This document shows positions 26,380 through 30,749 of a stretch of DNA of 64,000 nucleotides, one piece after another. The notes under the pieces are model-generated. The model made no database searches. It saw nothing but the letters and a program-made list of their open reading frames with translations, and was not told where the DNA came from. Each line of letters begins with the position of its first letter. The first letter of the stretch is position 1. Source of the stretch: Balamuthia mandrillaris (taxonomy: Eukaryota > Discosea > Longamoebia > Balamuthiidae). The DNA lies in contig JAVKOQ010000177.1 of assembly GCA_031835245.1 (NCBI GenBank), positions 1 through 64,000 of the forward strand. Direction: 5' to 3'. The position numbers and the translations under genes were made by a program.

Positions 26380-29117
26380 TCACCAAACACCGACACGTGT
26401 TCCAGCTTTGTAGATATCCCCTATAGGTTCTATTTTCAAACGTTCCACTCCTGCAGAGCCTACATGTTCCTCCAGAGCTTGCACCAGTTTCTCGTTGGAG
26501 GGAAACACGTGAGGAAAGTTATTGCGTCCGTCATGATGAGACAGTTTGCTCCATAGAATAGTGCCATCCTCCAGAGTTATTTCTTTTTTGTTTGTTTGTT
26601 TGTTTGTTTGTTTGTTTGTTTGTTTGTTTGTTTGTTTGTTTGTTTGTTTGTTTGTTTGTTTGTTTGTTTGTTTGTTTGTTTGTTTGTTTGTTTGTTTGTT
26701 TGTTTGTTTGTTTGTTTGTTTGTTTGTTTGTTTGTTTGTTTGTTTGTTTGTTTGTTTGTTTGTTTGTTTGTTTGTTTGTTTGTTTGTTTGTTTGTTTGTT
26801 TGTTTGTTTGTTTGTTTGTTTGTTTGTTTGTTTGTTTGTTTGTTTGTTTGTTTGTTTGTTTGTTTGTTTGTTTGTTTGTTTGTTTGTTTGTTTGTTTGTT
26901 TGTTTGTTTGTTTGTTTGTTTGTTTGTTTGTTTGTTTGTTTGTTTGTTTGTTTGTTTGTTTGTTTGTTTGTTTGTTAATAAAGAGGTTGTGGCCAAACGA
27001 ACAGAATTTTTTACCGAAAGCGGCAAGACGAGGCATGTTCGGGTTGCCAATGACTTTAACGCGAGGTGACACCGACTCCATGATCTTCTTTTTCTCCATA
27101 AATATCGTTTTGTAACCACAGTTTGTACTACATGATAGAGTGAGCAGGAAGCAGAATCCAAAAAGAAATAGCCAACAAAGGAGAAAGAAGATAGAGTACC
27201 AATATTCAACAATTACTTTGATGTCTGTCTTTTCGGATTCTTCGTCCTGTTTGTCCTTGTCTTTAGTTTGCGTTGTTGTTTCATCATTTTCTTCACCTTC
27301 GTCCTCTCCTGTCTCCTTTTCTTTCTCGTGTTCTTCATCTGCTATCTCCATCAACCACTTTAACTCTGGCAGCGATGGCACGTAATAGTAGTTACATCCG
27401 ACAGCACGTGTTATAGAGAACAAGTTATCCACGCTCCCATCCTCCGCAAAATGCCCACACATTCTCTTCAAAGCCGTGTCTATCTCCGAGAGAAAGCGAG
27501 AATACGCTGTGAAATAAAGACCTTCCTCCTCGCCGTTGCAATACGGATAAGCTTGTCGCAACATGGAGCCGAAAGCTCGAGCACTGTGCGAACGAGGAGG
27601 TGTATTCTCAACGGTTACGTACTCATCATCGCCACCAAGGCGTGGATTCTCGGGTCTATCATCGTAGCCGTGGTGTGGACGAACCTTCTCATAGTCCCTT
27701 CCTATGACCTCGTTTTTGTCTTTGGAAGACATTGCAAAGAACTTTTATTTTGGTGAGTAAAACGCAGAAAAATAAACCAAGAAATAAGAATGGAGGATGG
27801 AAACCTTGGCAAGATTATGAACAAAGCGACCAGCAAACATGTAGGTACCACCAGTATGTGCTTCATCGTTTTCATAGTCATCAGGAAATATGACAACTTC
27901 ATCCACCAACGAGCGAAGCAAGTGGTCAGGGTTTCTTGTGCCATCCACAAACCTGCAAAATAGCAAGTTCCACCGTGAGAATAAGAAGGCAAAGAAAAAC
28001 CAAGAGCGAAGAAAAGAAGCAGAAGAAGCAGAATGGTGAATTGTACCCAGTCAAATCGCGTCCTCCATAAGGATGTTGAGGCATGTAGGCAAAGCCTAAA
28101 GTGGTCGACCAAGAGGCTATGTTCCTTGACAACATGGTCCTAAATCTCTTCGTCACTTCATAACACAGATCCACTCGTTTTGCTTTCACCATCAAAAACA
28201 GTTCCGAGCCGGTCATGGCAGGAAGCAACACTTCCTCTTCGCTATTCTTCAGGTCCGTAAAAGGTTTCAGTTCTTTTGGCGGTGAAAGATCCCATTTCGT
28301 CCAAAGCGAAGAGGAGACAGCGACTAGAGCAGAAACTTGAGCTGTTTCGTCTACGGTTCCAACAGCATCTGCTAATTGGGGCACCGATGCAATGGCCTTT
28401 CGAACGGACGCTTCGTCAACATCTGAAGCTAACGTAACTGTTTAATGTTTCCAGAAACGGAAAAACATCAGCCACAGATAGGTCAGGAAAAGAAGAAAGA
28501 AGAGAGTTAAAGAACGAAAAAAGTGAGAGTACAGGTTGTAAATGCAGCATGTGGAATGTTCCCTTTGGAAACTACTCCGCGTTGTGTATTTGCAACATAA
28601 GGCACCGTCTCTGTCATTGTAGCAAGAGCCGGTTAGCAAACTATACCCAAGAAATACAAAAGAAGAAACAAACCAAAGTGACGTTGAGGCCAGCCAGAAG
28701 GGTCCAACGGTTCAAGGCCAGGACAGTGGCACTTTTTCGTTTTCGTTGAAGACAAGACAGAGTCAGTCATGAAGCTCAAACGTAACGTTTAGACTGCACA
28801 CAGGAAAAGTACCTCGATGTGAAGGTTGTAATGGTGCTGATCCAAAGCTATATAACCGCACGAGCATTGTACCATACCTTTTTTTTTTGGATGTAAAATA
28901 AACAAAAGCAACCAAGCGAATAAAAACTTGGCAGAAAAACGAAAGAAGAGGCGACGTTACCATCGTCCAAGACTTTTTCCTTCAGATGTTGTTTTTGTCT
29001 TGCAAGTTGTTCTTTAGATAGAGGAACCACGCGAAAGTGGCTTTCGGTTGCAGCAGCAGGAGCCGTTGCAGAAGCAGAAGAAGAAGCACGGGCTTCCGTG
29101 GTGTGAGCTTGTCCCAT
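26380..29117 (-). CDS. DyP-type heme peroxidase
   Basis: Exons (minus): 29117-28961, 28836-28813, 28610-28533, 28437-28047, 27952-27805, 27741-27200, 27127-27015 and 26582-26380, giving 551 residues in frame. The diagnostic DyP motif is DLTGFVDGTRNPDHLL, formed across a junction near residue 220. Further family blocks are GGTYMFAGRFVHNLAK, EVIGRDYEKVRP, SHSARAFGSMLRQAYPY, GLYFTAYSRFLSEID and YYYVPSLPELKWL. It should oxidise phenolic or dye-like substrates with H2O2. An acidic linker and a C-terminal extension of about 100 residues (ITLEDGTILWSK...) are unusual. The last putative intron (27014-26583) contains 97 TTTG repeats; it is 432 nt, so retention would also keep frame and insert 144 residues. 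A possible 5' exon near 29230-29330 could extend the N-terminus. Confidence 0.88.
26587..26974. repeat. (TTTG)97 perfect tetranucleotide array
   Basis: 388 bp of uninterrupted TTTG on the plus strand (AAAC on the DyP sense strand). It is open in all three plus frames (Phe-Val-Cys-Leu) and on the minus strand (Asn-Lys-Gln-Thr). Confidence 0.97.
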
Positions 29118-29403
29118 CGTTGGCTGTATACAAAAACCGGTAGTTTACAAAATTTGTTGTTTGGGTTCTCTGGATGACAAACAAACAAATAAACACGGGC
29201 AACCAACGTTTTTAAGATAAACCTTACCTGTTTTTTTTCAGCAAAAGCGTCATTCTTCTTTGCCAGCACAACGAGGCGTCCCAGGAACCTGCCTTCTTCT
29301 TCTGCTGTGCGCAATCTAATTTCAGAGAACTAAAAGCAGTCTAATAAATTAAGGCGGCGCAAAGATCATAAGATCTAAGGACAACGAAAAAAGAAATCAC
29401 GAC

Positions 29404-29430
29404 ATTAGTCTTTTGGGCCAATGAGCATGT
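29404..29430 (+). repeat. 27-bp direct repeat, left copy
   Basis: Identical over 27 bp to 30630-30656. It contains TTTTGGGCCAATGAGCATG and lies just inside the left TIR, while its partner lies outside the right TIR. It is followed directly by an E2F-like TTTCCCGCCAAAA (29430-29442). Confidence 0.9.
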
Positions 29431-29911
29431 TTCCCGCCAAAACAACCCTTCCTTCTCCCACGCCTTTGAAGGCAAAGTGGTGGGTTGGGGTGTGGGGTGG
29501 GGTGTACGGAATGGATGCTCATGCTGCTGCTGCCGCCAATAAACTTTTGGTACTCGTCATTCGCCTTGACACTTTTCTGCTACTCGTTTTCTTTTCTTCT
29601 CTTCTCTTCTTTTCTTTTCATTTCTTTCTTTTCAAAAGTAAACACACAGACACACACATCCACGAAGCTCCACGCACCACCGTATTTCTCATTGCTACGC
29701 TTCTACTACACAAGGAGGAAACCAGCCGAAGGAGGCAGAGGTGGAAACCGAAGCGGTTCAGCCGCAGGCAGGGGCACTGCTCCGATTGAAAAGGTAGCGT
29801 TCTTTTTTCTCTGCTCGCTCACTACATTTTTTGATGATGGAAACAAAATTTGTTACCAACCACTCACTAATGATTTCTTTTGTTTAAAAAAGAACAGCAT
29901 CACGAACCTCT

Positions 29912-30403
29912 GTGCGCCTCTTCCACAACGCTGCTGGAAGCTGGCCTGAATGGCGAATGAATCGAGGAGTTTCCAACACCCACGCAAGTCTCTTGTTCTC
30001 TCCCTTGAAATTGCTGTTATTTAGGAACTTCTCCCTCATCCTTCTGCCAGAGTTCAGGAGCCAGCAGATGGTGCGGCGAGGCCACCGCCGCATTGGCTCG
30101 CGAACGGCCAGAGCCATGCTGACCTGGTCCCACTATCGCTTCAGGCAGAGGCTCCTCAACAAGGCCCAGCAATTTCCGTCCTGTACGGTCTGCCTCTGCG
30201 ATGAGGAATACACCTCCAAAACCTGCGGCAAGTGCGGCCAAGTCCACCACCAGTTGGGGGGAAACAAGACCTTTCGGTGCCCTCAACCCGAGTGTGGCTA
30301 CCAGGCGGATCGAGATGCCAACGCCGCCCGAAACATCTTGATCCGCTTTTTCACTTTACAAGCACTTACCACCTCCTCCTCCTCCTCTGTGAGGGGGCGG
30401 TAG
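29912..30403 (+). pseudogene. Fanzor / TnpB-like nuclease, C-terminal fragment
   Basis: The recognisable part runs from about 30025 (after a probable TTATTTAG acceptor) to the stop at 30403. It holds the RuvC-II glutamate segment FSLILLPEF, the arginine-rich KTARAM-type helix (SRTARAMLTWSHYRFRQRLL), a zinc ribbon (SKTCGKCGQVH then FRCPQPECGY) and the RuvC-III aspartate motif DRDANAARNILIRF. These are the ordered C-terminal features of Fanzor and TnpB RNA-guided nucleases. The RuvC-I aspartate and N-terminal domains are not detectable upstream; only low-complexity Gly/Arg-rich sequence occurs at 29700-29790. It is therefore probably a truncated copy, unless distant exons were missed. It sits between the TIRs of the 1.2-kb element, reading outward to its right end. 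Confidence 0.85.
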
Positions 30404-30533
30404 GCGGTAAGGTTGCTTTGGTGCCGGCACCGTTGCTTATAGCGAGTCGTAAGACAAGCCGTGATTAGGCACGCCGGAGGTGGGTTATTTTTTGTGTCTG
30501 TTTTTTTGTTTTCCTTTTACTAATTTTGCTTTA
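30404..30533 (+). other. possible guide (omega) RNA region downstream of Fanzor
   Basis: Non-coding DNA between the Fanzor stop and the right TIR. It contains the perfect palindrome GGTGCCGGCACC (30420-30431) and GC-rich stretches that could pair. In known Fanzor and TnpB loci the guide RNA overlaps the 3' end of the ORF and the element end, so position supports the idea. No fold was computed. Confidence 0.25.
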
Positions 30534-30749
30534 TTTTCGTTGTCCCATTGATCGGCGTGATCTTGGCGCCGCCTTAGTCTAATAATAATAATATCTTGGC
30601 GCCGCCTTAGTCTAAAAAGAAAACAACGAATTAGTCTTTTGGGCCAATGAGCATGTGTAGTTCATGGACAAAAGGTGAATCATGCGCGTGCTTTTTTTTT
30701 CGCGATTCTTATTACAATCTTTGTTAACTTCATGTCCTCCTCATGGAGC

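Follow-up and report, generated by a model that had tools for sequence, protein, structure and literature searches.

Copies of a Fanzor2 transposon in the genome of the amoeba Balamuthia mandrillaris (64.8 Mb, 775 contigs) stand beside a one-sided target motif: CRG is found outside the left ends of the element but hardly outside its right ends. Our preferred reading, to which we give a probability of about 0.6, is that insertions of this family, which we call family A, are retained mainly at sites where the Fanzor would meet CRG on the left border of the target-site duplication (TSD). A short copy of the element lies in the window, by which we mean the 64,000 nucleotides of contig JAVKOQ010000177.1 (C176 in our numbering) that were analysed.

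A deleted family A element in the window

Alignment to an intact element of 2532 bp (locus L018) and comparison with an empty paralogue (L084, see below) delimit the whole insertion in the window at 29350-30609 on the forward strand, an internally deleted Fanzor2 transposon with terminal inverted repeats (TIRs) and a tandemly duplicated right end. From a parent of about 2.5 kb it has retained some 600 bp of the left end (29350-29954, element positions 1-596, 97% identity) and 570 bp of the right end (30023-30576, positions 1960-2532, 95%), and at the deletion junction between them lies an inverted internal piece of 84 bp (29953-30036, reverse strand, positions 1371-1288), whose alignment overlaps that of the right part by 14 bp. 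The deletion has removed about 1.28 kb of internal sequence, RuvC-I included. Judged against full copies, the element starts at 29350 with TAAGGCGGCGC and comes to its first right end at 30576 with GCGCCGCCTTA, and its TIRs (29350-29392 and 30534-30576) are 43 bp long with 81% identity between the arms; a repeat search in the window returned inverted arms at 29342-29368 and 30558-30584 (85%). The initial annotation had described a Fanzor remnant inside a TIR-bounded element, and the full-copy alignment confirms this, the TIRs being the ends of the element.

The right-end motif is duplicated, as had also been noted. A tandem duplication of 33 bp (30577-30609) is made up of GTCTAATAATAATAAT followed by the right-end terminus, the second copy of which lies at 30593-30609. 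Because the empty site places this duplication inside the insertion, the insertion actually ends at 30609, and the element boundaries first proposed fit if this duplication is included. The duplicated stretch is also present at C290:57858, where it is cut short, and is thus not private to the window. AGTCTAATAA, which is found at 29338-29347 and 30576-30585 and had been reported as flanking the element on both sides, contains the TSD.

Within the insertion, an ORF of 163 aa (29912-30403, forward strand) matches Pfam PF07282 (E = 1.5e-17). Aligned to full copies, this remnant of a Fanzor2 protein keeps the zinc ribbon (starting at 30224) and RuvC-III (DRDANAAR, starting at 30308), while RuvC-I with its DPG and the N-terminal domains are deleted. 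The available text of Yoon et al. (PMC10711439) defines Fanzors by DPG in RuvC-I together with a Glu six residues before the zinc finger (Ealt). The remnant does hold a RuvC-II Glu, as annotated, but the defining one is Ealt at 30206-30208 and not the Glu of LPEF upstream.

A DNA query with the element gave at least 110 matches in its own genome among 40 scored of 268 candidates, many of them, in that scored set, 95-100% identical over hundreds of bases. Because of these many near-identical matches the element is not a product of chance, and the proposal that it is a short derivative of a Fanzor transposon is supported by a multicopy family in the same genome. The window copy itself is a dead, one-off deletion derivative and ordinary as an object; it is the full copies, with their flanks, that are informative. 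Elsewhere in the window (26592-27115) lies a long simple repeat that reads CLFV or NKQT in several frames.

The Fanzor protein of family A

The window copy and 39 loci taken from places matched by that query gave a set of 40 oriented loci. A genome-wide scan for a left-end 18-mer with up to three mismatches, a pattern that catches right ends too, yielded 156 + 157 hits, compared with 9 + 7 for the reversed control. Complete Fanzor ORFs, 541-591 aa long and containing all three motifs of the search, occur at 17 of the 40 loci, L038 and L039 among them, which have a common flank. The genome search that the initial annotation had suggested thus bore it out: TIR copies co-occur with Fanzor sequence, and full-length copies with the RuvC-I DPG exist. 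The closest database proteins carry names such as 'Transposase [Balamuthia mandrillaris]', and our literature search found no paper joining Fanzor with Balamuthia.

Full copies contain LDPGVR and E-YTSKTC, so that both Fanzor fingerprints are present. The Fanzor frame is under purifying selection: 190 pairwise comparisons of the core in 20 open frames give a pN/pS of 0.27, in a sample picked for open frames and hence biased against stops though not against missense changes; differences at codon positions 1, 2 and 3 number 1088, 866 and 2501; and DPG, Ealt and DRD are conserved across the 20 ORFs. The context of Ealt is CDEEY in 19 of them and YDEEY in one, the Glu being kept in all 20. Fifteen of the 24 ORFs listed have MASCPQCGKKF at the N-terminus, which we take to resemble a C2H2 finger; in L028 an E/K-rich linker follows this motif and leads into the Fanzor core.

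The best relative of known structure is mimivirus L79 (PDB 9b0l, E = 6e-27), followed by TnpB and Cas12-like chains, and none of the 17 solved-structure matches at E up to 0.01 is a chain named Fanzor1. By these comparisons the protein is Fanzor2-like, closer to IS607 TnpB and viral Fanzor2 than to Fanzor1. In L034, the one copy scanned, the long ORF matches TnpB/Fanzor domains only and no recombinase domain. IS607 elements are recognised by a serine recombinase and by the lack of TIR and TSD, and family A differs from them in these respects. Because it has TIRs and TSDs and is without an IS607-type recombinase, we place it in Fanzor2*, that is, Fanzor2 captured by a TIR/TSD transposon, which it matches. 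Given its retained catalytic residues and a flanking motif of TAM form, the protein is predicted to act as an RNA-guided endonuclease.

Nine short TIR pairs (L048-L056) were considered as a MITE test of transposase versus Fanzor and rejected, all of them being deletions of the Fanzor element, each with private breakpoints. Also rejected were candidate giant elements with correctly oriented ends lying 26 kb apart on C197 and on C5 and 4.9 kb apart on C290. The flanks of the C197 and C290 candidates fail as TSDs, the C290 interval holds host-like genes, and the C5 candidate has no common TSD at either flank.

Target-site duplications and a one-sided motif

A TSD with a score of at least 6 flanks 15 of the 31 copies in which both ends are present, against a shuffled mean of 0.59 and a maximum of 4. 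The duplications are mostly 10 bp long and variable in sequence. Read from the motif described below, their length is 10 at 37 sites, 9 at 19, 8 at five and 11 at two. At 29 of 36 right ends the next base outward is G, and apart from this first G the TSD is variable; only that G could therefore belong to a reRNA scaffold, the remainder being too variable. In the other 16 copies, which by score include the window copy, the flanks fail as TSD, a point that counts against reading the motif as a TAM. CRG is kept on the left in 13 of these 16 and G on the right in 12, and copies of this kind, with the motif and the G though without a matching TSD, suggest recombination between copies after insertion. 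At L051 and L055, inverted flank sequence adjoins the right end.

The left flank beside the TSD looked non-random, and the motif was then tested genome-wide. Of 75 exact left-end 18-mers one proved to be a T-variant right end (C115:111076) and was removed, which left 74. CRG stands 10-13 bases outside 62 of these 74 left ends, where the chance of a CRG at any of the four offsets is about 10% under an assumed base composition. At 56 ends it lies at a spacing of 8-9 variable bases, and at six more (the window, L017, L054, L076, L077 and L083) one base nearer or farther; in the window it is CAG at 29337-29339, read as the TAM, with its G as the first base of the TSD. With seven repeated TSDs removed, the motif is present at 55 of 67 ends, and copies with a clean TSD have it in 14 of 15 cases. 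The 63 distinct sites that bear the motif comprise 47 CAG and 16 CGG.

Outside the 66 exact right-end 18-mers, the mirror motif occurs at the same two spacings in eight cases where 3-4 are expected, so that left and right differ strongly (56/74 versus 8/66, Fisher p ~1e-14). In the flanks that were fetched, a peak at offsets 11-12 accounts for 31 of 41 distinct left flanks and offsets 10-13 for 35 of 41; other left offsets show CRG in 0-4 of the 41, and the right-hand mirror motif at offsets 10-13 is present in 5 of 36. The left flanks fetched overall, which deliberately include 12 non-matching ends, are no random sample, and the rate is therefore that of the 74 exact ends.

Two features of these counts speak against a TAM. 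On the right, the mirror motif occurs roughly two times as often as expected, which may reflect a weak two-sided part, and 12 of the 74 exact left ends are without CRG; in two of these (L073 and L075) CAG lies one further base nearer. The motif also accompanies eight of the nine short derivatives without a complete Fanzor ORF. Because these have private breakpoints and are maybe deletions that arose after insertion, they fail to separate a nuclease from a transposase as its cause.

An empty paralogue of the window site

The left flank of the window element has two paralogues. One of them (L084, C57:201250-202000) is without the element, its flanks joining as CTAAAAACTA and then GTCTAAAAAGAAAACAACGAATTAGTC; compared with the window it is 92% identical over 536 bases of left flank (87% in the last 145) and 97% identical on the right. 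The empty-site check proposed in the initial annotation was thus run on a paralogous site, which holds a single copy of GTCTAAAAAG. This is the right TSD of the window (30610-30619), and eight of ten bases are equal between it and the left TSD GTCTAATAAAT (29339-29349). At the spot of the motif L084 reads CTA/G, that is TAG and not CRG, which counts against the TAM reading; the paralogue is diverged. The second paralogue (L085, on C525) has diverged at the insertion spot and shows no match to the window element in the 851 bases compared. For the L033 and L018 insertions, whose left flanks were searched in the genome, no usable empty paralogue was found, the one match to the L033 flank (72%) ending 59 bases before the query does.

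A perfect 27-bp direct repeat, whose right-hand copy lies at 30630-30656, had been noted at an offset close to the element length. It sits within a repeat of 43 nt (88%, spacing 1226), and the right-hand copy belongs to a relic at 30614-30656 (forward strand) that resembles the left-end interior of the element. The relic with its repeat is present in the empty paralogue too, so the repeat is older than the window insertion and is no product of it.

The conserved right end

Immediately downstream of the Fanzor frame lies a highly conserved non-coding stretch (30401-30493 in the window, forward strand), which by its low divergence is the predicted core of a right-end guide RNA. Over 93 columns from the stop codon, 25 copies differ at 0.0084 per site, against a synonymous pS of 0.046 in 20 ORFs; a U-rich spacer differs at 0.123 per site and the last 53 columns at 0.037. 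Two loci were left out of this alignment (L023 and L028), of which one is without the core and the other is a different fragment. Such conservation is consistent with a right-end RNA and is no proof of one. From the TAM position and known reRNA architecture, the guide segment of the window copy is predicted to run from the second base of the TSD into the right flank at the outer right end (30611-30626, forward strand).

Folding of the predicted right-end RNA gave no significant structure, with a z of -0.87 that is no better than shuffles and counts against the TAM reading; the ends of two other Fanzor families, described next, gave -2.21. For covariation, family A copies diverge too little.

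Further Fanzor families in the genome

The same genome holds at least two further Fanzor families, B and C, with 41% and 29% identity to the family A protein. Both have a serine-recombinase domain (PF00239) in overlapping frames, together with MerR-like HTH matches below the curated cut-off, and by these features they look like IS607-type Fanzor2 elements. At none of ten B and C loci did the ends show the family A TIR. Left ends of family B are preceded by C at two of two loci, which gives CCG if the core is CG. Family C reads GCAG before the element, followed by GTAAGT, at four of five loci, the exception being C718. In both families the border between element and target is ambiguous, but these left borders agree with CRG as a TAM of family A.

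The family C loci are L063/L068 (C73), L064/L069 (C11), L067/L070 (C39), L066 (C598) and L065/L071 (C718). Their right end, TTTTAATCCATCAG, is found on C73, C11 and C598 and twice on C718, and is lost on C39. When the flanks are joined, the reading frame is open from -14 to at least +186 aa on C73 and from -34 to +58 aa on C598, and less clearly so on C11. By its sequence, family C has the look of a transposon that doubles as a spliceosomal intron. A literature search on introner, transposon and TnpB found nothing, and one on Fanzor and intron returned no title on an intron-like Fanzor transposon among the matches listed. In family B (L058 on C57, L060 on C774) the loop of a right-end hairpin reads CCUAC and a near-terminal segment GUAGG; judged by eye, these two could pair as in the reRNA pseudoknot of IS607 TnpBs.

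Search for a mobiliser

The TSD length of family A fits MULE/MuDR. Positions were compared by eye across the genome, and no listed exact end has any of the 68 MULE-domain or nine hAT matches within 10 kb. Two of 26 DDE_Tnp_1 matches are that close to an end, both on C276 (34342 and 38514). The nearer belongs to a DDE transposase-like gene with an ORF of 227 aa about 95 bp from a family A right end (L027 1032-1715, C276:38331-39014). No TIR of the family A type was seen at this gene, which we presume from its motif to be Harbinger-type. The window element, expected at the outset to inform on both its ends and its mobiliser, has therefore delivered the former, its TIRs being the ends, and not the latter, none having come out of the MULE, hAT and DDE_Tnp_1 searches. 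Twelve of the 68 MULE-domain matches begin at a distance of 1279-1314 bases from the start of their contig, and on C7 and C110 the matches are about 1.29 kb away from the contig end; this may be a subtelomeric gene or element, or else a common assembly break.

Discussion

Target logos of cut-and-paste transposases that act on inverted ends are usually symmetric, the element landing either way round. A one-sided motif therefore calls for a step that depends on orientation, and a Fanzor could supply it, since a guide derived from the right flank puts the TAM just left of the insertion point. In the mechanism that we propose, a transposase acting in trans, MULE-like by TSD length, would insert the element with little sequence preference, and transcription of the right end would yield a guide RNA whose guide begins just inside the TSD and continues into the right flank. 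CRG would be the TAM, which on a chromosome without the insertion would lie just left of the point where the element goes in. At CRG plus guide, the Fanzor RNP would then cut those chromosomes that have no insertion, and repair of the break would copy the element in, while insertions without CRG at that place could not be defended and would tend to disappear. We lean narrowly towards the fuller picture in which the element is scattered at random and the Fanzor, using a guide that includes the TSD, keeps the insertions that lie behind CRG, a homing or retention drive that leaves a natural record of its activity.

Alternatively, the Fanzor may be uninvolved and CRG may be the target preference of a transposase whose two ends are not equivalent. 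We consider this rather unlikely, although a transposase with an asymmetric preference would leave an identical signature. The arms of the family A TIRs do differ (81% over 43 bp), the domain searches found no transposase whose preference would constrain the idea, and CRG stands beside eight of nine short derivatives without a complete ORF as well. Symmetric logos are nevertheless the usual outcome with such enzymes, and the mirror motif is rare on the right; the distance between motif and TIR varies with a TSD of 8-11 bp while the motif stays at its outer edge; and CRG resembles Fanzor2 TAMs that have been measured, namely CCG for NlovFz2 and TAG for MmeFz2 in the available text of Saito et al.

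Two other explanations fare worse. If an IS607-type serine recombinase of family B or C moved family A in trans, CRG would be a recombination core, an idea that draws on the PF00239 recombinases of both families and on their left borders, CCG and mostly CAG. It is very improbable: in the available text of Bao and Jurka, IS607-type Fanzor2 elements are without TIR and TSD, and family A has both; its TIR was not seen at the ends of the ten B and C loci; and clean 10-bp TSDs disfavour it. That we are dealing with an ordinary dead fragment, and that the motif stems from base composition or segmental duplication, we regard as hardly credible. The window copy is indeed dead and seven of the 74 left ends have a TSD that had been counted before, but the motif persists at 55 of 67 ends without the repeats and reaches only 0-4 of 41 at other left offsets, and the contrast between left and right refutes such an origin. 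Our best reading remains the one in which the Fanzor would act on CRG.

Among known systems, family A is most like the Fanzor2* of Chloropicon primus, Mercenaria and other molluscs, which, in the available text of Yoon et al. 2023 (PMC10711439), combine DPG and Ealt with TIRs and TSDs and are without an IS607 recombinase. Family A differs in that its host is an amoeba and its TSD is mostly 10 bp and variable in sequence. The same source places the TSD of those elements in the reRNA scaffold, whereas in family A the guide is predicted to run through the TSD because, the first base apart, the TSD varies too much for a scaffold. It also describes, for ISXfa1, a TAM of GGG and a right-flanking nucleotide within the reRNA scaffold, to which the nearly fixed G of the family A TSD would be the counterpart. 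Set beside other Fanzor2*, family A is the one in which a one-sided motif has been measured genome-wide. The families B and C of the same genome, like mimivirus L79, are IS607-type by comparison and have a homologous protein; B and C have a serine recombinase and show no such TIR, whereas a TIR and a TSD without a recombinase mark family A. In the available account of Bao and Jurka, Fanzor2 is known from IS607 elements only.

Two kinds of Fanzor1 element are similar in other ways. Spu-1/SpuFz1 of Spizellomyces punctatus (available parts of Bao and Jurka 2013 and Saito et al. 2023) is likewise a TIR element with one ORF and many ORF-less copies, and it too has conserved bases outside its left IR, which in its case form part of the TAM: Saito et al. 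describe a conserved CA outside the 5' IR which, with the TA of the TSD, makes CATA. In SpuFz1, a Fanzor1, the fixed TA TSD thus lies wholly inside the TAM, whereas in family A the motif takes in no more than the first base of a random TSD. The MuDR-type elements ROr-4, PBl-3 and MCi-4, as far as Bao and Jurka 2013 describe them, are non-autonomous TIR elements that carry only a Fanzor and have TSDs near 9 bp; they are Fanzor1 elements of fungi, unlike the Fanzor2 of family A.

What Fanzors do for their transposons in a living host is a standing question on which the motif bears. The available text of Saito et al. discusses cleavage of the sister chromosome and notes that the host would have to be manipulated genetically, and bacterial TnpB is presented as a gene drive for insertion sequences in the available part of a 2025 preprint by Mears et al. 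At the level of the family the novelty is a Fanzor2* with a strong one-sided target motif, which makes a claim about Fanzor function testable. A TAM-like motif beside a random 10-bp TSD separates the choice made by the transposase from retention by the nuclease, as elements with a fixed TSD cannot. Two definite predictions follow from our reading, CRG as the TAM and the position at which the guide starts. The presence of recombinase-bearing and captured Fanzor2 in one genome also suits Balamuthia mandrillaris to the study of how Fanzors change vehicle. If the reading is true, each family A insertion would count as one scored test of how specific the TAM is in the living host.
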